Assembly: GCF_002105535.1 (NCBI RefSeq)
Contig: NZ_CP015848.1
Location: 2,470,624 to 2,534,623 of the forward strand
Direction: 5' to 3'
DNA: 64,000 bases
DNA from: Magnetospirillum sp. ME-1
Lineage (GTDB): Bacteria > Pseudomonadota > Alphaproteobacteria > Rhodospirillales > Magnetospirillaceae
Positions 27,054-33,559 of this stretch are shown here, in pieces (within the stretch, counting starts at the first letter, position 1; every line of letters begins with the position of its first letter). The notes below the pieces were generated by a model that was not told where the DNA came from, made no database searches, and saw only the letters and a list, made by a program, of their open reading frames with translations. The translations under genes were made by a program, and so were the position numbers.

Positions 27054-28691
27054 TTACCGCATTGAGCGGACGGCCTTGATGAGATTCGCCGTCGAGCAAT
27101 CATGGGTGCCGGGTGTACTGCCCGAGGACAGTTCCGGCAGGATGGCCTTGGCCAGCACCTTGCCCAGTTCCACCCCCCACTGGTCGAAGCTCGGCACGTC
27201 CCAGATCACGCCCTGGACGAACACCTTGTGCTCGTAGAGCGCGATCAGCATGCCCAGCGTGAAGGGGTCCAGCCGGGGGTATAGAAGCATGTTGCTGGGC
27301 CGGTTGCCGGGAAACACCCGGTGGGGCAGCTGGAAGGCGATCTCGGCGTCGTTCATGCCGGCCTTTTCCAGCTCGGCGCGGGCCTCGGCCTCGGTCTTGC
27401 CCTTCATCAGGGCTTCCGCCTGGGCCAGAACGTTGGACAGCAGCAGCAGGTGATGCTCGCCCAGCGGGTTATGGCTGTTGGCGGCGGCCAGGAAGTCGCA
27501 GGGGATCAGGCGGGTGCCCTGGTGGATCAGCTGGTAGAAGGCGTGCTGGCCATTGGTGCCGGGCTCGCCGAACACGATGGGGCCGGTGCCCCAGGCGACG
27601 CGGGCTCCGTCGAGGGCGGTGCCCTTGCCGTTGCTTTCCATGTCCAACTGCTGGAGATAGGCCGGCAGCCGGTGCAGATACTGGTCGTAGGGCAGCACGG
27701 CATAGGCGTCGGCGCCCAGGAAGTTGGCGTTCCAGATGCCGATCAGGGCCAGGATCACCGGCAGGTTGGACTCCAGCGGCGCGGTCTGGAAATGGCGGTC
27801 CATGGCGTGGCCGCCGTCCAGCAGACGCTCGAAATGGTCGAAGCCCACCGCCACGGCGATGGACAGGCCGATGGCCGACCACAGGGAATAGCGCCCGCCG
27901 ACCCAATCCCAGAACTCGAACATGTTGGCGGTGTCGATGCCGAACCCGGCCACCGCCTTGGCGTTGGTGGACAGCGCCACGAAATGGCTGGGAATGGCCG
28001 CCTCGCCCAGCTTTTCGGTCAGCCAGGCGCGGCAGGTCCGGGCGTTGGCGATGGTCTCCTGGGTGGTGAAGGTCTTCGACGCCACGATGAACAGGGTGGT
28101 TTCCGGATCGCAGAGCTTCAGCACCTCGGCGGCGTGGCTGCCGTCCACGTTGGAGATGAAGCGCACCGCCAGCCCGTCCTTCTGGTAGGGCTTCAGCGCC
28201 TCGGTGACCATCACCGGCCCCAGGTCGGAACCGCCGATGCCGATATTGACCACGCTATGGATGGGCTTGCCGGTGGCACCCTTCCACTCGCCCGACCGCA
28301 CCCGGCCACTGAAATCCTTCATGCGGGCCAGCACGGAATCCACCTCGGGCATCACGTCGCATCCGTCCACCATGACCGGCTGGCCGGACCGGTTGCGCAG
28401 CGCGGTGTGCAGCACGGCGCGGCGCTCGGTGGCGTTGATCCTGCCGCCCTGGAACATGGAATCGCGGGCCCGGGACAGCCCGGCCTGTTGCGCCAGACGG
28501 ACCAGGGCGGCCATCACGGACGCATCGATGCGGTTCTTGGAATAATCCAGCAGCAGATCGCCCAGGCGGGCGGAAAAGCGGTCGAAGCGGCCGGGATCCT
28601 CGGCGAACATGTCGCGCATGGGGCGCCGGCCGGTGGTGGAGGCCAGGGCCTCCAGTTCCGTCCAGGCGGGAAGCGTCGTCGGATGTGCCAT
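27054..28691 (-). CDS. pgi: Glucose-6-phosphate isomerase
   Basis: 545 residues from ATG 28691, normal for the enterobacterial-type enzyme. PGI signatures [18 protein letters not shown] and a C-terminal segment with [23 protein letters not shown]; catalytic Glu in GEPGTNGQH and the late [10 protein letters not shown]. Interconverts G6P and F6P in the cytoplasm. Same strand as the iron-cluster polyferredoxin gene upstream; 37 bp gap and no obvious functional link. Confidence 0.96.
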
Positions 28692-28728
28692 GAGGGTCCC
28701 CCCGGTATTGCCGTGGGAGAATCCTACC

Positions 28729-30096
28729 CTACCAGACGAAGAAGAACACCCCCCACATGCCGATCTGGGCGAAGGCCCCGGCCAGACCCAGCGGCCAGGC
28801 GGCCAGGCGGCGGCCAAGGGAAACGGCCGGCAGGGACCGCCACAGCAGCAGGGCGCTCCAGGCCAGTCCTGCCGCCAGCACCCCGGCGCGGGCGTCGGGG
28901 ACCCAGGCGAGAAAGACGCCCTCGGCGGTGAGCTGGGTGAGCGTCATGGCCGACAGGCCGACGATCAGTCCGGCGGCTCCGGCCGGCACCAGCGCGTAGC
29001 CCAGCCGCCAAAGCAGTTCGGGCCGGCCCAGCACCCGGGCGCTCAGCCCCAGCCCGGCCAGCCCGATGGCACCGAACAGCAGCGCCGCGCCGCCCATGTA
29101 GGCCAGGATGCAGAAGCCGTCCAGCAGGGTGAAGACCTCGCCGGTCTCGTCGGAATTGGTCAAGAGCCACCAGGGCAGAGTCCCGGTCATGGGGAACAGG
29201 ACGTCGTGCTCCACCAGGATTTTGGCCAGTCCCTGCTTGAGCGCGATGAACACCGGCGAGGCCGACCACTGGAAGGCCCCGCTGGCCACCCCCATCACCC
29301 CGAACAGCAGCAGGACGATGTCCCAGGCCGAGACCTCGCGGGCGGGAAGGGCGGCGATCTCCGACCCCGGCAGGCGCGGCGCCAGTTCCACCGCGCCCCG
29401 GTGGCCCGAGCAACGGCCGCAATTATGGCACGAGCCGCCGCCGGTCATGGCGCGCACGTCCACCAGGGTGGCGCAATCCACCGCATGGGTGCGCGGCGCC
29501 GCCTTCCAGGCCTCGGCATCGACGCGGAAATGGACGGGCGCCAGGCGCGACAGCAGCGAGAACACGCCCGAGGCCGGGCAGAGATAGCGGCACCACACCC
29601 GCTTTCCCCGCCCATAGACCAGGCCGATGCCCAGCGCCATCACCGTCGAGACGCCGAGAATCAGCAGCGCCGCCTTGGGATATTCATAGACGGTGATCAT
29701 CTGGCCGTAGACCGTGGTGCAGACGAAAGCCACGAACGGCCAGCCCTTCCAGCGCAGCCAGGCGGGAATGGCGCGGCCCAGCCCATGGCGGCTCACCCAT
29801 TCGGTCATGGGGCCCTCGGGGCAGAACAGGCCGCACCAGGCGCGGCCCATCACCACCATGCTGACCATGACGAACGGCCACCACACCCCCCAGAAAGCGA
29901 ACTGGGCGAACAGCACCAGATCGTCCCAGATATGCCTGGAATCGTCGGGCACCGGCAGGAAGGCCGGCAATGTCACCAGGACCAGATAGATGACCACCAT
30001 CAGCCATTGCACCGCCTGGATCAGCCGGGAATGGCGGGCCAGGAAATGGCCGAGGACGGCCAGGGGGGTCGGGCGGACGGGCGTCAGGCTGTTCAT
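28729..30096 (-). CDS. Membrane polyferredoxin, FtrD-like (4Fe-4S)
   Basis: 455 residues from ATG 30096, about ten membrane helices. Two NapH/NosR-type CxxxCP motifs ([19 protein letters not shown]) and a third cluster [12 protein letters not shown], giving ligands for at least two 4Fe-4S centres. Such proteins are the electron-transfer part (FtrD) of FTR1-type ferrous iron uptake with a P19 protein and a cupredoxin, both present just upstream. The C-terminal 180 residues are a string of hydrophobic helices without Cys. No FTR1 permease is encoded in the window. Preceded by an operator-like motif and a hairpin, so it may have its own promoter. Confidence 0.8.
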
Positions 30097-30113
30097 TCGG
30101 TCCTCAAAGGCGA

Positions 30114-30146
30114 AACCATGCCCGGCTGTCGGCACCGGGCATGGTT
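30114..30146. terminator. Hairpin between porin and polyferredoxin genes
   Basis: Perfect 12-bp stem AACCATGCCCGG / CCGGGCATGGTT with a 9-base loop. On the gene strand it is followed by TTTCG. It could end or stabilise the porin mRNA and thereby separate its expression from the polyferredoxin gene. Confidence 0.6.
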
Positions 30147-30163
30147 GTTGTTGATAATACAAG

Positions 30164-30178
30164 TGAGATGCATTCGCA
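30164..30178. promoter_or_regulatory. Operator-like motif 3 of the iron cluster
   Basis: On the gene strand: TGCGA-ATGCA-TCTCA, 68 bp before the polyferredoxin ATG, with TATTAT (a possible -10) right after it. Same TGCGA-N5 pattern as the sites at 32243-32257 and 32443-32457. Confidence 0.45.
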
Positions 30179-30182
30179 TCAC

Positions 30183-31649
30183 TTAATACGTCAACTGCCC
30201 TCTCAGCCCCAAGGCATAGGCGACCTCGCCCGAGGGATTGCCGCCGGGATGGCGGATGATCTGGACGTCGGGGGTCAGGTCGAAGCGGGGCATGACGCGG
30301 TAGCGGTAGTAAAGCTCCGCCGTCTGCTCGAAGGACGTCGCCTTGTACCCCACATCCGGCGTGCCGTCGTTGTCGAGATCCAGGGTGGACGACTTGTCGC
30401 GGTAGGTCTTGGACACGTGGTTGGCCACCAGGCCCAGACCCAGGCCATCGGCGCCGCGGCCCCAGTACGAACCGTTGACCTCGCCGCCGGCGCTGACGCT
30501 CTGGTCGAAGCGCGTCTTGCCCTTCAGCTGATAGCCGTAGCGGCCGAACAGGGTGACGTAATCGTCCACCTTCTGGTCCACGGACAGGCCGAGTCCGGCA
30601 TGGCGGCCCCGCTTGTTGTCGAAGTCGGTGGCGCGGTCGTTGGTCCAGCCGTAGACGCGGTAGGTGCCTTCCAGACCGCCGAAGAAGCGCTGGGTGGTCT
30701 CCGCCTGAACAATGCGGAAGGGGAACTCGTTGGAGCCCTGGAATGACGCGCCGGTCCCCGTCTCGAAGACGCCGGCCTGCACCTTCCACTTGTCGGCGTC
30801 GTTGACATAGGCCATGCGCAGGCCGGGCGAAAAGCCGAAGGGATCCACCCCAACGTCGCCGCCGGCATCCAGCAGGGCGTTGTGGACCAGGGCGGAATTC
30901 ATGAAATACACGGTCTCGTCGTTGGCCACGGCGTTCTTGTCGAAGAAGCCGAAGGGATCCATCTTGCCGGCGGTGATCTCCATGTGATGCTTGGCGGTCT
31001 TCAGGTCGCCGCCGAACGGCACGTCGAGCTGGTACCAGGCCTCCACCAGGCCGATGGCCGCGTCGGTGTTGTCGGCGCCGGAGCGCTGGAAGGCCGTGCC
31101 GTTGACCGAGGCCATGGAGTTGCTGACCGTGCCCAGGCCACGCCCCTGGCCCATGCGCAGATGGGTGAAGATGGTGCCCTTGGAATTGCCGACATTGCCG
31201 CCGGGAATGGTCAGGGTCACGTCGCCGCGCCAGTTGAGCTGGCCGTCCTTTTCCTGGGACTGGCCGATCAGATTCTGGCCCACCACGGTCATGCCGGCGC
31301 CCACCTTGATGCCGCCCAGCACGTCGACGACCTTCGAGCCCTTCTTGTAGGAGAGGATCTCGTTCTCGGCGGCCTTGACGCGGGCCGCCACCTCGGGCTC
31401 GTTCTCGCTGATGGTATCCTGGGCCATGGCTTTTTCCATGGCGGCGTTATGGCTCTCCAGCTTCTCGATACGCTGCTCGGTGTCGGCGGCGGCGGTCTTC
31501 TTGCGTTCCAGTTCCTCGACGCGGTTGGCCAGGCGCCTGATCTCGGCCAGCAGTTCGGCGGTGGACGGGTCCTTGGCCGGGGCGGCCCAGGCCGGGGCGG
31601 CGGCGATCAATCCGATCGCGGCCGCCGTGGCAAGGAAACGGCTGTTCAT
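30183..31649 (-). CDS. OprB-like outer-membrane porin with coiled-coil N-terminus
   Basis: 488 residues, ATG 31649 overlapping the P19 stop by one base (TGATG). Signal peptide MNSRFLATAAAIGLIAAAPAWA. Residues 30-80 form a heptad coiled coil (ELLAEIRRLANRVEELERKK) that can bind peptidoglycan or trimerise, and the rest is a beta barrel ending in aromatic LRGQLTY. Segments such as WYQLDVPFGG, FRIVQAETTQRFFGGLEG and DYVTLFGRYGYQLKG fit the OprB carbohydrate-porin family. Its place between P19 and polyferredoxin genes implies passage of iron or an iron ligand (inference). Confidence 0.78.
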   Translation of the reverse strand: MNSRFLATAAAIGLIAAAPAWAAPAKDPSTAELLAEIRRLANRVEELERKKTAAADTEQRIEKLESHNAAMEKAMAQDTISENEPEVAARVKAAENEILSYKKGSKVVDVLGGIKVGAGMTVVGQNLIGQSQEKDGQLNWRGDVTLTIPGGNVGNSKGTIFTHLRMGQGRGLGTVSNSMASVNGTAFQRSGADNTDAAIGLVEAWYQLDVPFGGDLKTAKHHMEITAGKMDPFGFFDKNAVANDETVYFMNSALVHNALLDAGGDVGVDPFGFSPGLRMAYVNDADKWKVQAGVFETGTGASFQGSNEFPFRIVQAETTQRFFGGLEGTYRVYGWTNDRATDFDNKRGRHAGLGLSVDQKVDDYVTLFGRYGYQLKGKTRFDQSVSAGGEVNGSYWGRGADGLGLGLVANHVSKTYRDKSSTLDLDNDGTPDVGYKATSFEQTAELYYRYRVMPRFDLTPDVQIIRHPGGNPSGEVAYALGLRGQLTY

Positions 31650-32212
31650 CAGTAGCCGCCCTTCTTGCCGACACCGGCGAAGACGAATTCATAATCCAGG
31701 GTGAAGGCGGGGAACCACGGGCGCACGCCGGTGGCGCGGTCGGTGTGGCGGCCGTAATGCTTGCCCGAGGCGTTCTCCGGGGCGTTGGGAGGCAGGATGG
31801 TGTACTTCACCTTGTACTTGCCCGGGCCCTTCAGCTTGATGTTGTCGCCGTAATGGGGGCCGTCATTGGCCACCATGGGCATCATGTCGCCCTTGATCAC
31901 CTCGCCGGAATCCACCTTGGTCAGCTCGTACTTGACCAGCAGGTAGGGAATCCACGCGCCCTCGGGATAGCCGTTGGGATTGCCCTGCAGGGCCTTGATG
32001 TCGGCCTCGATGTGGATGTCCGACTGCTCGGGCTGCAGCATCATGCCGTCGGGCTCCATGCGCACGGCCTGAAGGTAGACGGCGCCGATCTCCATGCCGT
32101 AGCGGGTCTCGGGAGCGCCGATGGGGTACTCCACCGCCAGGGCCGGGGCGGAAGCGGCGGACAATCCCGCCAGGACGGCGAGGGCGGGAAGGAAGGTCTG
32201 GCGTTTGATCAT
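31649..32212 (-). CDS. P19/FtrA-type periplasmic iron transport protein
   Basis: 187 residues from ATG 32212. Signal peptide ending SAPALA, then VEYPIGAPETRYGMEIGAVYLQAV. The P19 signature is clear: MMLQPEQSDIHIEADI, GAWIPYLLVKYEL and DMMPMVANDGPHYGDNIKL, with the Met, His and acidic metal ligands seen in Campylobacter P19. These dimers bind copper and iron and hand iron to an FTR1 permease. First gene of the leftward cluster; a palindromic operator-like site sits 31-45 bp upstream. Confidence 0.9.
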   Translation of the reverse strand: MIKRQTFLPALAVLAGLSAASAPALAVEYPIGAPETRYGMEIGAVYLQAVRMEPDGMMLQPEQSDIHIEADIKALQGNPNGYPEGAWIPYLLVKYELTKVDSGEVIKGDMMPMVANDGPHYGDNIKLKGPGKYKVKYTILPPNAPENASGKHYGRHTDRATGVRPWFPAFTLDYEFVFAGVGKKGGY

Positions 32213-32242
32213 GGGGGGCCTCTGCGCGAATGGGAATGCGAC

Positions 32243-32257
32243 TGCAAGTGACTCGCA
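32243..32257. promoter_or_regulatory. Operator-like motif 1 (before the P19 gene)
   Basis: On the P19 strand TGCGA-GTCAC-TTGCA, within a larger palindrome TGCGACTGCAAGTGACTCGCA (32237-32257). Position close to the start codon suits a repressor such as Fur or Irr. The wider 32213-32474 gap holds the divergent promoters. Confidence 0.5.
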
Positions 32258-32442
32258 ATTGCTTTTGGTTAAGGCCTCTCGCCCTATTCTGTCAACACCC
32301 ATAATTTTCCCCGGAGTTATGCGCGTCGCCGGCGAGGCCCGGAGAACGCTTGGGATTACCCCGTGAAATCAGGGCCTTGCCCATCAGCGGGAAATTCCCT
32401 CAATCCAATTCTGGACAAAGCCTTAGGACTTGCGTATGAGAA

Positions 32443-32457
32443 TGCGAGTCGGTCGCA
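32443..32457. promoter_or_regulatory. Operator-like motif 2 (before the cupredoxin gene)
   Basis: TGCGA-GTCGG-TCGCA, a 15-bp palindrome with perfect 5-bp arms, 18 bp upstream of the cupredoxin ATG, preceded by TGCGTATGAGAA, which resembles a Fur half-site. Confidence 0.5.
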
Positions 32458-32474
32458 AACTTAAGAGGCCCTCC

Positions 32475-32813
32475 ATGCCTGCGCTCCTGCGAATCATTCT
32501 CCCCATCCTGCTTGTCTCCCTATGGAGTCCGCTCGCCGGGGCGGCCGACGAGGTCGTGGTCAAGCTGACCATCAAGGATCACCGCTTCATCCCGGAGCGG
32601 CTGGAAATTCCCGCCAGGACCAAGGTGATCCTGCTGGTCCGCAACGAGGACGCGGAGCCCGAGGAATTCGAGTGCCTGCCCCTTCGCCGCGAGAAGATCG
32701 TCTTTCCCGGCACCGAGGTCCGCGTGGTGCTGGGCAAGGTGGATGCCGGCGAATACCCCTTCTTCGGCGAGTACCACGAGGCCACCGCCAAAGGGGTGAT
32801 CATCGCCCGGTAA
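32475..32813 (+). CDS. Periplasmic cupredoxin-like protein (FtrB-type)
   Basis: 112 residues from ATG 32475 with AGAGG upstream; an in-frame ATG at 32430 is less likely. Signal peptide MPALLRIILPILLVSLWSPLAGA. The mature domain (VVVKLTIKDHRFIPERLEIPARTKVILLVRN ... EEFECLPLRREKIVFPG ... GEYPFFGEYHEATAKG) is the EfeO/FtrB cupredoxin type. A classical Cys-His-Met copper loop is not visible. In FtrABCD systems it is thought to oxidise or buffer iron before the permease. Divergent from the P19 gene. Confidence 0.85.
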   Translation: MPALLRIILPILLVSLWSPLAGAADEVVVKLTIKDHRFIPERLEIPARTKVILLVRNEDAEPEEFECLPLRREKIVFPGTEVRVVLGKVDAGEYPFFGEYHEATAKGVIIAR

Positions 32814-32912
32814 AGACCCTAATACGGATGAGCCTTGGCAATTTCCCGGCATTGGGCGCTCTAATATCCACTCACCTCATGTGGGTATTCTGCGGAAATT
32901 GAGGAGGCGGCC

Positions 32913-32993
32913 ATGGAAGATTTTTCCAAGAACCTGCTGATCGCAGCCTTGCCCGGCGGCAGCTACTGGCTTCTCGGCCTGCTGCTGCTTTAG
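32913..32993 (+). CDS. Candidate 26-residue hydrophobic microprotein
   Basis: ATG 32913, 26 codons, stop TAG at 32991. The product is an amphipathic head MEDFSKNLLIAAL plus PGGSYWLLGLLLL, which could form one short membrane helix. A strong ribosome site GAGGAGG (32901-32907) lies 5 bp upstream. It sits between the cupredoxin and acetyltransferase genes, so it may belong to the iron cluster. Length alone gives little statistical support; the Shine-Dalgarno match is the main evidence. Confidence 0.5.
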   Translation: MEDFSKNLLIAALPGGSYWLLGLLLL

Positions 32994-33055
32994 TCACGGT
33001 GGCCTTCCCTCTCCCGCCGTGTCAGGATTTGCCGGCGCGGCCGGGAGATGAGGAT

Positions 33056-33559
33056 ATGAGGGACGACGTCGAGATCGTGGCGGGATGGCAGCCGGGCGCC
33101 ATCGGCGACATCGTCGCCATGCAGTCGCGCTATTATGCGCTCCACTGGAATTTCGGCCCCTATTTCGAGGCCAAGGTGGCCACCGAGCTGGCCGCCTTCG
33201 TCCGCGACCGCCACCGCTTCGCCAGCCAGCTGTGGTGCGCCGTGGACAACCGCGAGCGGATGATCGGATCGGTGGCCATCGACGGCGCCAAGGGGCCCGA
33301 AGCCGGTGCCCATCTGCGCTGGTTCATGGTCGATCCCAACCGCCAGGGCATGGGGGCGGGCTCGCGCCTTTTGGATTGCGCCCTGGAATTCTGCCGCGAG
33401 AAGGGCTTCGCCTCGGTCTACTTATGGACCTTCGCCGGCCTGCATGCGGCGCGGCGGCTGTACGAGGCGCGCGGCTTCGTCCTCACCCAGGAGCTGACCG
33501 GCGAAACCTGGGGCAAGCCGGTGACCGAACAGTGCTTCCAGCTGGATCTGGCGGGATGA
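33056..33559 (+). CDS. GNAT-family N-acetyltransferase
   Basis: 167 residues from ATG 33056 (GGGAGATGAGG upstream). GNAT motif A: HLRWFMVDPNRQGMGAGSRLLDCALEF (acetyl-CoA loop Q-G-M-G-A-G), and motif B: VYLWTFAGLHAARRLYEARGFVLTQE. The front HWNFGPYFEAKVATELAAFV is usual for the MarR-linked acetyltransferase subgroup, but no HTH is fused here. The acceptor is unknown. 39 bp upstream of murJ. Confidence 0.88.
   Translation: MRDDVEIVAGWQPGAIGDIVAMQSRYYALHWNFGPYFEAKVATELAAFVRDRHRFASQLWCAVDNRERMIGSVAIDGAKGPEAGAHLRWFMVDPNRQGMGAGSRLLDCALEFCREKGFASVYLWTFAGLHAARRLYEARGFVLTQELTGETWGKPVTEQCFQLDLAG

Follow-up and report, generated by a model that had tools for sequence, protein, structure and literature searches.

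A conserved Ftr-type iron-uptake cluster of Paramagnetospirillum with a candidate permease gene elsewhere on the chromosome

Introduction

Where is the permease of an iron-uptake gene cluster that carries none? The question is raised by a 64,000-nucleotide stretch of the chromosome of Magnetospirillum sp. ME-1 (NZ_CP015848.1, positions 2,470,624 to 2,534,623; hereafter the window), in which genes for a P19 iron-binding protein, an OprB-type porin, a membrane 4Fe-4S protein and a cupredoxin stand together (locus A). A preliminary description of this DNA had assigned them to an iron-uptake cluster of the FTR/P19 type, had seen no gene for the permease FTR1 (FtrC) and had remarked on the porin between P19 and the 4Fe-4S protein, for which its term ‘polyferredoxin’ is a loose name. 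According to the available sections of PMC11966278, FtrABCD imports only Fe2+, FtrC is thought to draw on the energy of Fe2+ oxidation, the proposed oxidase is copper-bound FtrA or FtrB, none of the four Ftr parts is dispensable in Bordetella, and a five-component system, FtrAPBCD of Rubrivivax gelatinosus, is described, citing Steunou et al. 2022. We found no description of the porin-FtrD cluster of Paramagnetospirillum, or of its missing permease, in the literature consulted on the topic, and no paper on an unlinked FtrC turned up in related literature searches, none of which was aimed at it and for which subscription papers were mostly outside reach.

Here, we propose that locus A encodes FtrA, FtrP and FtrD, together with a divergently encoded FtrB, of a split FtrAPBCD-type Fe2+ importer, with an orphan FTR1 at positions 4085834-4086643 of the same chromosome as the most likely FtrC; we give this reading a probability of about 0.68. 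The proposal gives this iron cluster, which lacks a permease gene and is conserved in a genus that includes magnetite formers, a candidate partner and with it a testable route of iron supply. More generally, an Ftr cluster may still function when its FTR1 is ‘missing’: where the usual slot is empty, members of a separate FTR1 clade turn up repeatedly, either unlinked or at the edge of the cluster and often in a pair with a cupredoxin gene.

Results

The gene content, its conservation, the FTR1 clades and the box before P19 are given here as they stand in the sequences. All four genes of locus A are real, Pfam assigns each of them (Table 1), and their families match FtrA, FtrP, FtrD and FtrB, in keeping with the FTR/P19 type first proposed. 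The porin start codon overlaps the P19 stop; the P19 and 4Fe-4S proteins most likely start at 32212 and 30096, and the longer open reading frames (ORFs) overstate both. The cupredoxin gene had been counted as a member of the cluster and is present, but it diverges from the P19 operon and lies outside the operon itself. A genome-wide search for FTR1, which the preliminary description had advised, was run with the profile PF03239 on the single contig of 4,551,873 bases and returned three match rows at two loci, both outside the window: the orphan and locus B, at 515.6-516.8 kb. FTR1 is indeed absent from the window, and the earlier suggestion that the permease is encoded elsewhere in the genome gains support from these two loci and from the clade to which the orphan belongs.

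The best solved relative of the P19 protein is 7r4z, an ‘FtrA-P19 protein’ (E 5e-77), and P19 of Campylobacter jejuni (3lzl) is of the same family; that of the cupredoxin is 8vuk (E 3e-16), which is Brucella FtrB in the accessible text of PMC11966278. The porin matches OprB 4gey by profile (E 7e-13) and again as the top Foldseek match, and shares 40-48% identity with the 24 porins aligned from P19 clusters of other genera. Its N-terminus, noted earlier as a coiled coil, has helices at residues 30-51, 54-76 and 85-102 in the model, at mixed to low local confidence (block means 37-77). The FtrD-like protein joins an N-terminal half that resembles NapH/CcoG, by weak profile matches below the cut-off, to additional C-terminal helices. 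Eight of its cysteines, in two C-x3-C-P motifs, at C208 and in CxxCxxC at 223-229, are invariant across 45 aligned relatives. AlphaFold2 predicts a many-helix membrane protein with a mean confidence (pLDDT) of 93, for which no solved relative was found by sequence at E 0.01 and no significant Foldseek match of any kind (best E 0.5).

Relatives of the cluster were collected by scanning named genomes with the 4Fe-4S profile of the genus and two peptide patterns; the best 80 of 145 relatives were read, a biased sample with several short contigs that was grouped by hand. FTR1 occupies the slot before the 4Fe-4S gene at 39 of these 80 loci, lies at the cluster edge at 12 and is absent from the available stretch at 21; six further loci are from the own genus and two are cut contigs. 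The slot loci have the order P19-porin-Cup-FTR1-Fer (Cup, cupredoxin gene; Fer, 4Fe-4S gene) in 25 cases, among them Rubrivivax gelatinosus (L108), and P19-Cup-FTR1-Fer in 13, and one contig begins at FTR1 followed by Fer. A porin gene in the place after P19 is a feature of 25 of the 39 slot loci, where the cupredoxin gene comes next, and a system with this fifth component is already published (PMC11966278, as far as its text is accessible). From L108 we read the P of FtrAPBCD as the porin. Because of these locus orders and the 7r4z, 8vuk and OprB matches, we take the porin of locus A to be FtrP and the cluster to be of the Ftr type, with FtrC missing from its operon. On a tree of FtrD proteins (88 rows) the label ‘no FTR1’ takes at least 13 changes, nine of them forced by starred branches, which suggests that the empty slot arose repeatedly. 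FtrD relatives were also found on 12 plasmid records, of which four were opened and the two annotated ones show P19-Cup-FTR1-Fer. As a separate observation, two Sinorhizobium loci (L136 and L143) have P19 and FtrD with no cupredoxin or FTR1 gene nearby, in draft genomes with no FTR1 match.

The permease was then located by phylogeny. Among the 21 genomes with an FTR1-less cluster, fourteen carry FTR1 on another contig, which is what ‘unlinked’ means in these drafts, and seven have none; P19 is matched in 19 of the 21. In an FTR1 tree of 84 rows, which leaves out L115 (a partial FTR1 at a contig end), the orphan falls into one clade of 37 rows with support of 100/100. This clade takes in 15 of the 16 FTR1s found on a different contig from an FTR1-less cluster, all but one of the 12 FTR1s that the genus has outside locus B, and 11 edge FTR1s with the usual slot empty (eight from Methylobacterium, after Fer, and three from Betaproteobacteria, before P19). 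The 39 usual-slot FTR1s fall outside it, and another group is formed by the B-type FTR1s together with the twelfth genus FTR1, from G016. A cupredoxin gene directly precedes FTR1 at seven of the 16 unlinked loci and in the genus member G005. Given this clade membership and the preceding cupredoxin genes, the orphan, in which both RExxE motifs are intact (residues 10 and 126), is read as the probable FtrC. It is not the EfeU of an EfeUOB system, since the M75 domain of EfeO (PF09375) was found in 0/17 genus genomes. Orphan FTR1 occurs in nine of the ten genus genomes with locus A vs two of the seven others (Fisher p 0.035, uncorrected for kinship). In the wider sample an orphan-clade FTR1 is present in 14/21 genomes with an empty slot vs 8/39 with a slot operon (p 0.0007, uncorrected), a count in which genomes with a single FTR1 match are taken to have the linked copy only, seven of them unchecked by sequence. 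As judged by eye, the orphan stands beside arsenic-resistance-like genes in ME-1 (G000; L004 3940-8644) and G010, and beside oxidoreductase genes, likewise seen by eye and not by profile, in several other genomes of the genus.

Within the genus, P19 profile matches are present in 14/17 genomes and locus A, P19-porin-4Fe-4S with the divergent cupredoxin gene, in 10/17; the same cluster lies on contigs of P. caucaseum SO-1 and P. marisnigri SP-1. The divergent cupredoxin copy accompanies all ten loci, and the genes are open and conserved in the nine locus-A genomes other than G008, as far as the contigs show. An acetyltransferase gene adjoins the cupredoxin gene in eight of ten regions and pgi lies downstream in five of the nine with that side visible, neighbour counts from which the cassette appears to stay together where its flanks change. 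No FTR1 was found in any of the ten regions (at L050, in G013, the contig ends in the porin and the 4Fe-4S gene is out of view), and the nine FtrD rows from locus A fall into a single clade (SH-aLRT 96), so on this evidence the absence of FTR1 is old in the genus. The preliminary description had held that a linked FTR1 in close relatives would speak against its reading; a linked copy is present in more distant relatives, but at 0/10 loci of the genus. In G008 (P. marisnigri; L047 9668-11069) two overlapping ORFs take the place of a single porin gene in locus A, either a pseudogene or an assembly error.

At all ten genus loci a 7-1-7 palindrome lies 28-30 nt upstream of the P19 start and a TTGACA lies at -79 to -83. 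The palindromes were compared with a palindromised feoAB1 operator, on which the Magnetospirillum Fur protein (MgFur) gives a DNase I footprint (PMC4506495, accessible in part). The window box has 12/16 matches and the ten P19 boxes 10-14/16, the published wild-type operator itself scoring 13/16; p values, from first-order resampling shuffles and not exact dinucleotide shuffles, are <=0.017 in seven of the ten and 0.030, 0.093 and 0.146 in the others. On iron-repressed expression, or a response to copper instead, the one observation is this box before P19, a sequence motif. On the cupredoxin side the best operator match is another site than the candidate in Table 1 (p 0.24), and boxes are inconsistent across the genus loci. 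When the genome was scanned for Fur boxes with one mismatch allowed, six rows came back (control 0), from four places of which one is the P19 box; the scan yielded no independent support for a regulon, because the other three places are not obviously before iron genes. The box before the cupredoxin-FTR1 pair of G005 has 12/16 operator matches.

Table 1. Features of locus A and its flanks, in window positions
Feature	Position	Strand	Remark
ftrA-like, periplasmic P19 iron-binding protein, 187 aa	31649-32212	-	PF10634, E 7e-64
ftrP-like, OprB-type outer-membrane porin, 488 aa	30183-31649	-	PF04966, E 9e-23
ftrD-like, membrane 4Fe-4S protein, 455 aa	28729-30096	-	Fer4_5 PF12801, E 8e-10
ftrB-like, periplasmic cupredoxin, 112 aa	32475-32813	+	Cupredoxin_1 PF13473, E 4e-25
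Predicted Fur-type 7-1-7 palindrome	32243-32257	-	30 nt before P19 start codon
TTGACA (-35-like) of P19 operon	32290-32295	-	conserved; not listed by generic promoter scan
Weak candidate Fur-type box before cupredoxin gene	32443-32457	+	score 14.9 vs background 99th percentile 16.3; may be chance
pgi	27054-28691		downstream flank of cluster
Acetyltransferase gene	32999-33559		flank on cupredoxin side

Discussion

The arrangement is of a known kind but split: a linked FtrC is missing, so this is not an intact FtrAPBCD operon. It shares with FtrAPBCD of Rubrivivax gelatinosus the P19 protein, the porin that follows it, the cupredoxin and the FtrD-type 4Fe-4S protein, but has no FTR1 between cupredoxin and FtrD, a divergent cupredoxin gene and an unlinked permease. 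FtrABCD of Bordetella, Brucella and Burkholderia has homologues of the same FtrA, FtrB and FtrD, with Brucella FtrB the best match of the cupredoxin, whereas locus A has the extra porin and no linked FtrC. With the FetMP-FetABCDEF/P19 system of Campylobacter jejuni (PMC6083913, accessible in part) it has the P19 family in common, but a Pfam scan of the six locus proteins at 27057-33556, which were all that it covered, found no ABC permeases, ATPase or thioredoxins. EfeUOB differs in its EfeO, as given above. Tpd/P19 and the copper-dependent iron uptake of magnetotactic bacteria were also compared. Copper-dependent iron transport in strain MV-1 was reportedly described by Dubbels in 2004, and the ChpA of that work is said to be P19.

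By analogy with the published FtrABCD model, we infer a partnership with the orphan FTR1, a substrate and an electron route. Iron starvation would lift Fur repression of the cluster, Fe2+ would pass the outer membrane via the porin and be bound by P19 in the periplasm, and copper-loaded P19 or the cupredoxin would oxidise it. The permease FTR1, which has two RExxE motifs, would then carry the ferric ion in, and FtrD may move electrons through its Fe-S clusters.

Several observations weigh against a split importer with the orphan as its FtrC. A weak box precedes the orphan FTR1, with 10-12/16 operator matches and p 0.01-0.30 over nine genomes, which leaves its link to Fur only suggestive. The association of clusters and orphans is loose in both directions. 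No FTR1 was found in seven of the 21 genomes from which FTR1-less clusters come; Sinorhizobium isolates account for two of the seven, and another two have no P19 match either, so they are incomplete. Two genus members, G004 and G011, have the orphan without locus A, and an orphan-clade FTR1 also occurs in 8/39 slot-operon genomes, one by a weak score, so it can be present without an FTR1-less cluster. In independent pairs on the FtrD tree the association was not significant (median p 0.38-0.63 in three versions with eight or nine pairs, and thus little power; L115, L096, L105 and five B-type rows left out). Two other permeases are also at hand: locus B supplies another FTR1 in the ME-1 genome, and FeoB, another Fe2+ permease, is present in 17/17 genus genomes.

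In another reading, the P19-porin-FtrD module works without FTR1, as a periplasmic device for iron (or copper) binding and redox chemistry from which Fe2+ passes to FeoB or a different permease. Locus A occurs with no FTR1 match, yet with FeoB, in G012, a metagenome-assembled genome (MAG) that is 99% complete, and P19 and FtrD are likewise found with no FTR1 match in the MAGs G018, G019 and G032 and the Sinorhizobium drafts G035 and G036. We consider it rather unlikely for locus A, since these FTR1-free cases are drafts or MAGs, FTR1 is encoded elsewhere in 14/21 genomes with FTR1-less clusters and in 9/10 in the genus, and the four Ftr parts are needed in Bordetella (PMC11966278, in its accessible part). 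A bolder version, hinted at by G012, the three other MAGs and the two Sinorhizobium drafts, and in our view a little more doubtful still, is that the module was freed from FTR1 in several lineages as a stand-alone, Fur-controlled device for iron binding and electron transfer that feeds FeoB, with FTR1 dispensable; in Paramagnetospirillum it might perhaps supply magnetosome iron too. A common replacement permease did not emerge: when the ORFs of 25 FTR1-less loci were compared all against all, none but the cluster genes and the shadows antisense to them had relatives in most loci, and other ORFs had relatives in at most six other loci; in five FTR1-free cases the neighbouring genes were inspected by eye alone.

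That FtrD is itself the permease, through its C-terminal helices, was among the suggestions of the preliminary description and is very unlikely. In its favour, FtrD is modelled with confidence as a membrane protein of many helices and no relative with a solved structure was found, but the C-terminal region with its invariant residues is also found in FtrDs encoded beside FTR1, and Foldseek offers no fold to compare it with. For the same reason the helices were ruled out as a new transport domain, and the porin was ruled out as a permease substitute, being a regular part of slot loci. Hardly any credence goes to a decaying remnant of an FtrAPBCD operon: the slot is empty and the G008 porin is split, but in the remaining nine genomes with locus A the genes are open and conserved wherever the contigs reach, the promoter elements are conserved in 10/10 and the nine FtrD rows form one clade.

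The partner of locus A could instead be the FTR1 of locus B (391 aa, intact, with two RExxE motifs), which is encoded in the same genome. Locus B (L005 3514-9381; 511.5-517.4 kb of the chromosome) comprises genes for a small periplasmic protein, FTR1, its own FtrD-like 4Fe-4S protein, two P19 proteins and a different OprB porin. We regard this as quite improbable, because seven of the ten locus-A genomes have no locus B and an eighth (G007) has only decayed pieces, and because the B-type FTR1 and FtrD fall into separate, distant clades in their trees. Moreover, locus B is 99.7% identical to the copy in G006 over 12.8 kb, compared with 85.8% for the locus-A region, a contrast that suggests a recent exchange; no match to locus B was found on the plasmid records. 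In G007 the decayed pieces (L057, on contig C36) are short remnants of P19 (with one internal stop), FTR1 and porin, and that genome has an intact locus A. In G016 (L171, on contig C76), a genome without any P19 match, a B-type FTR1 was also seen with an OprB porin immediately after it.

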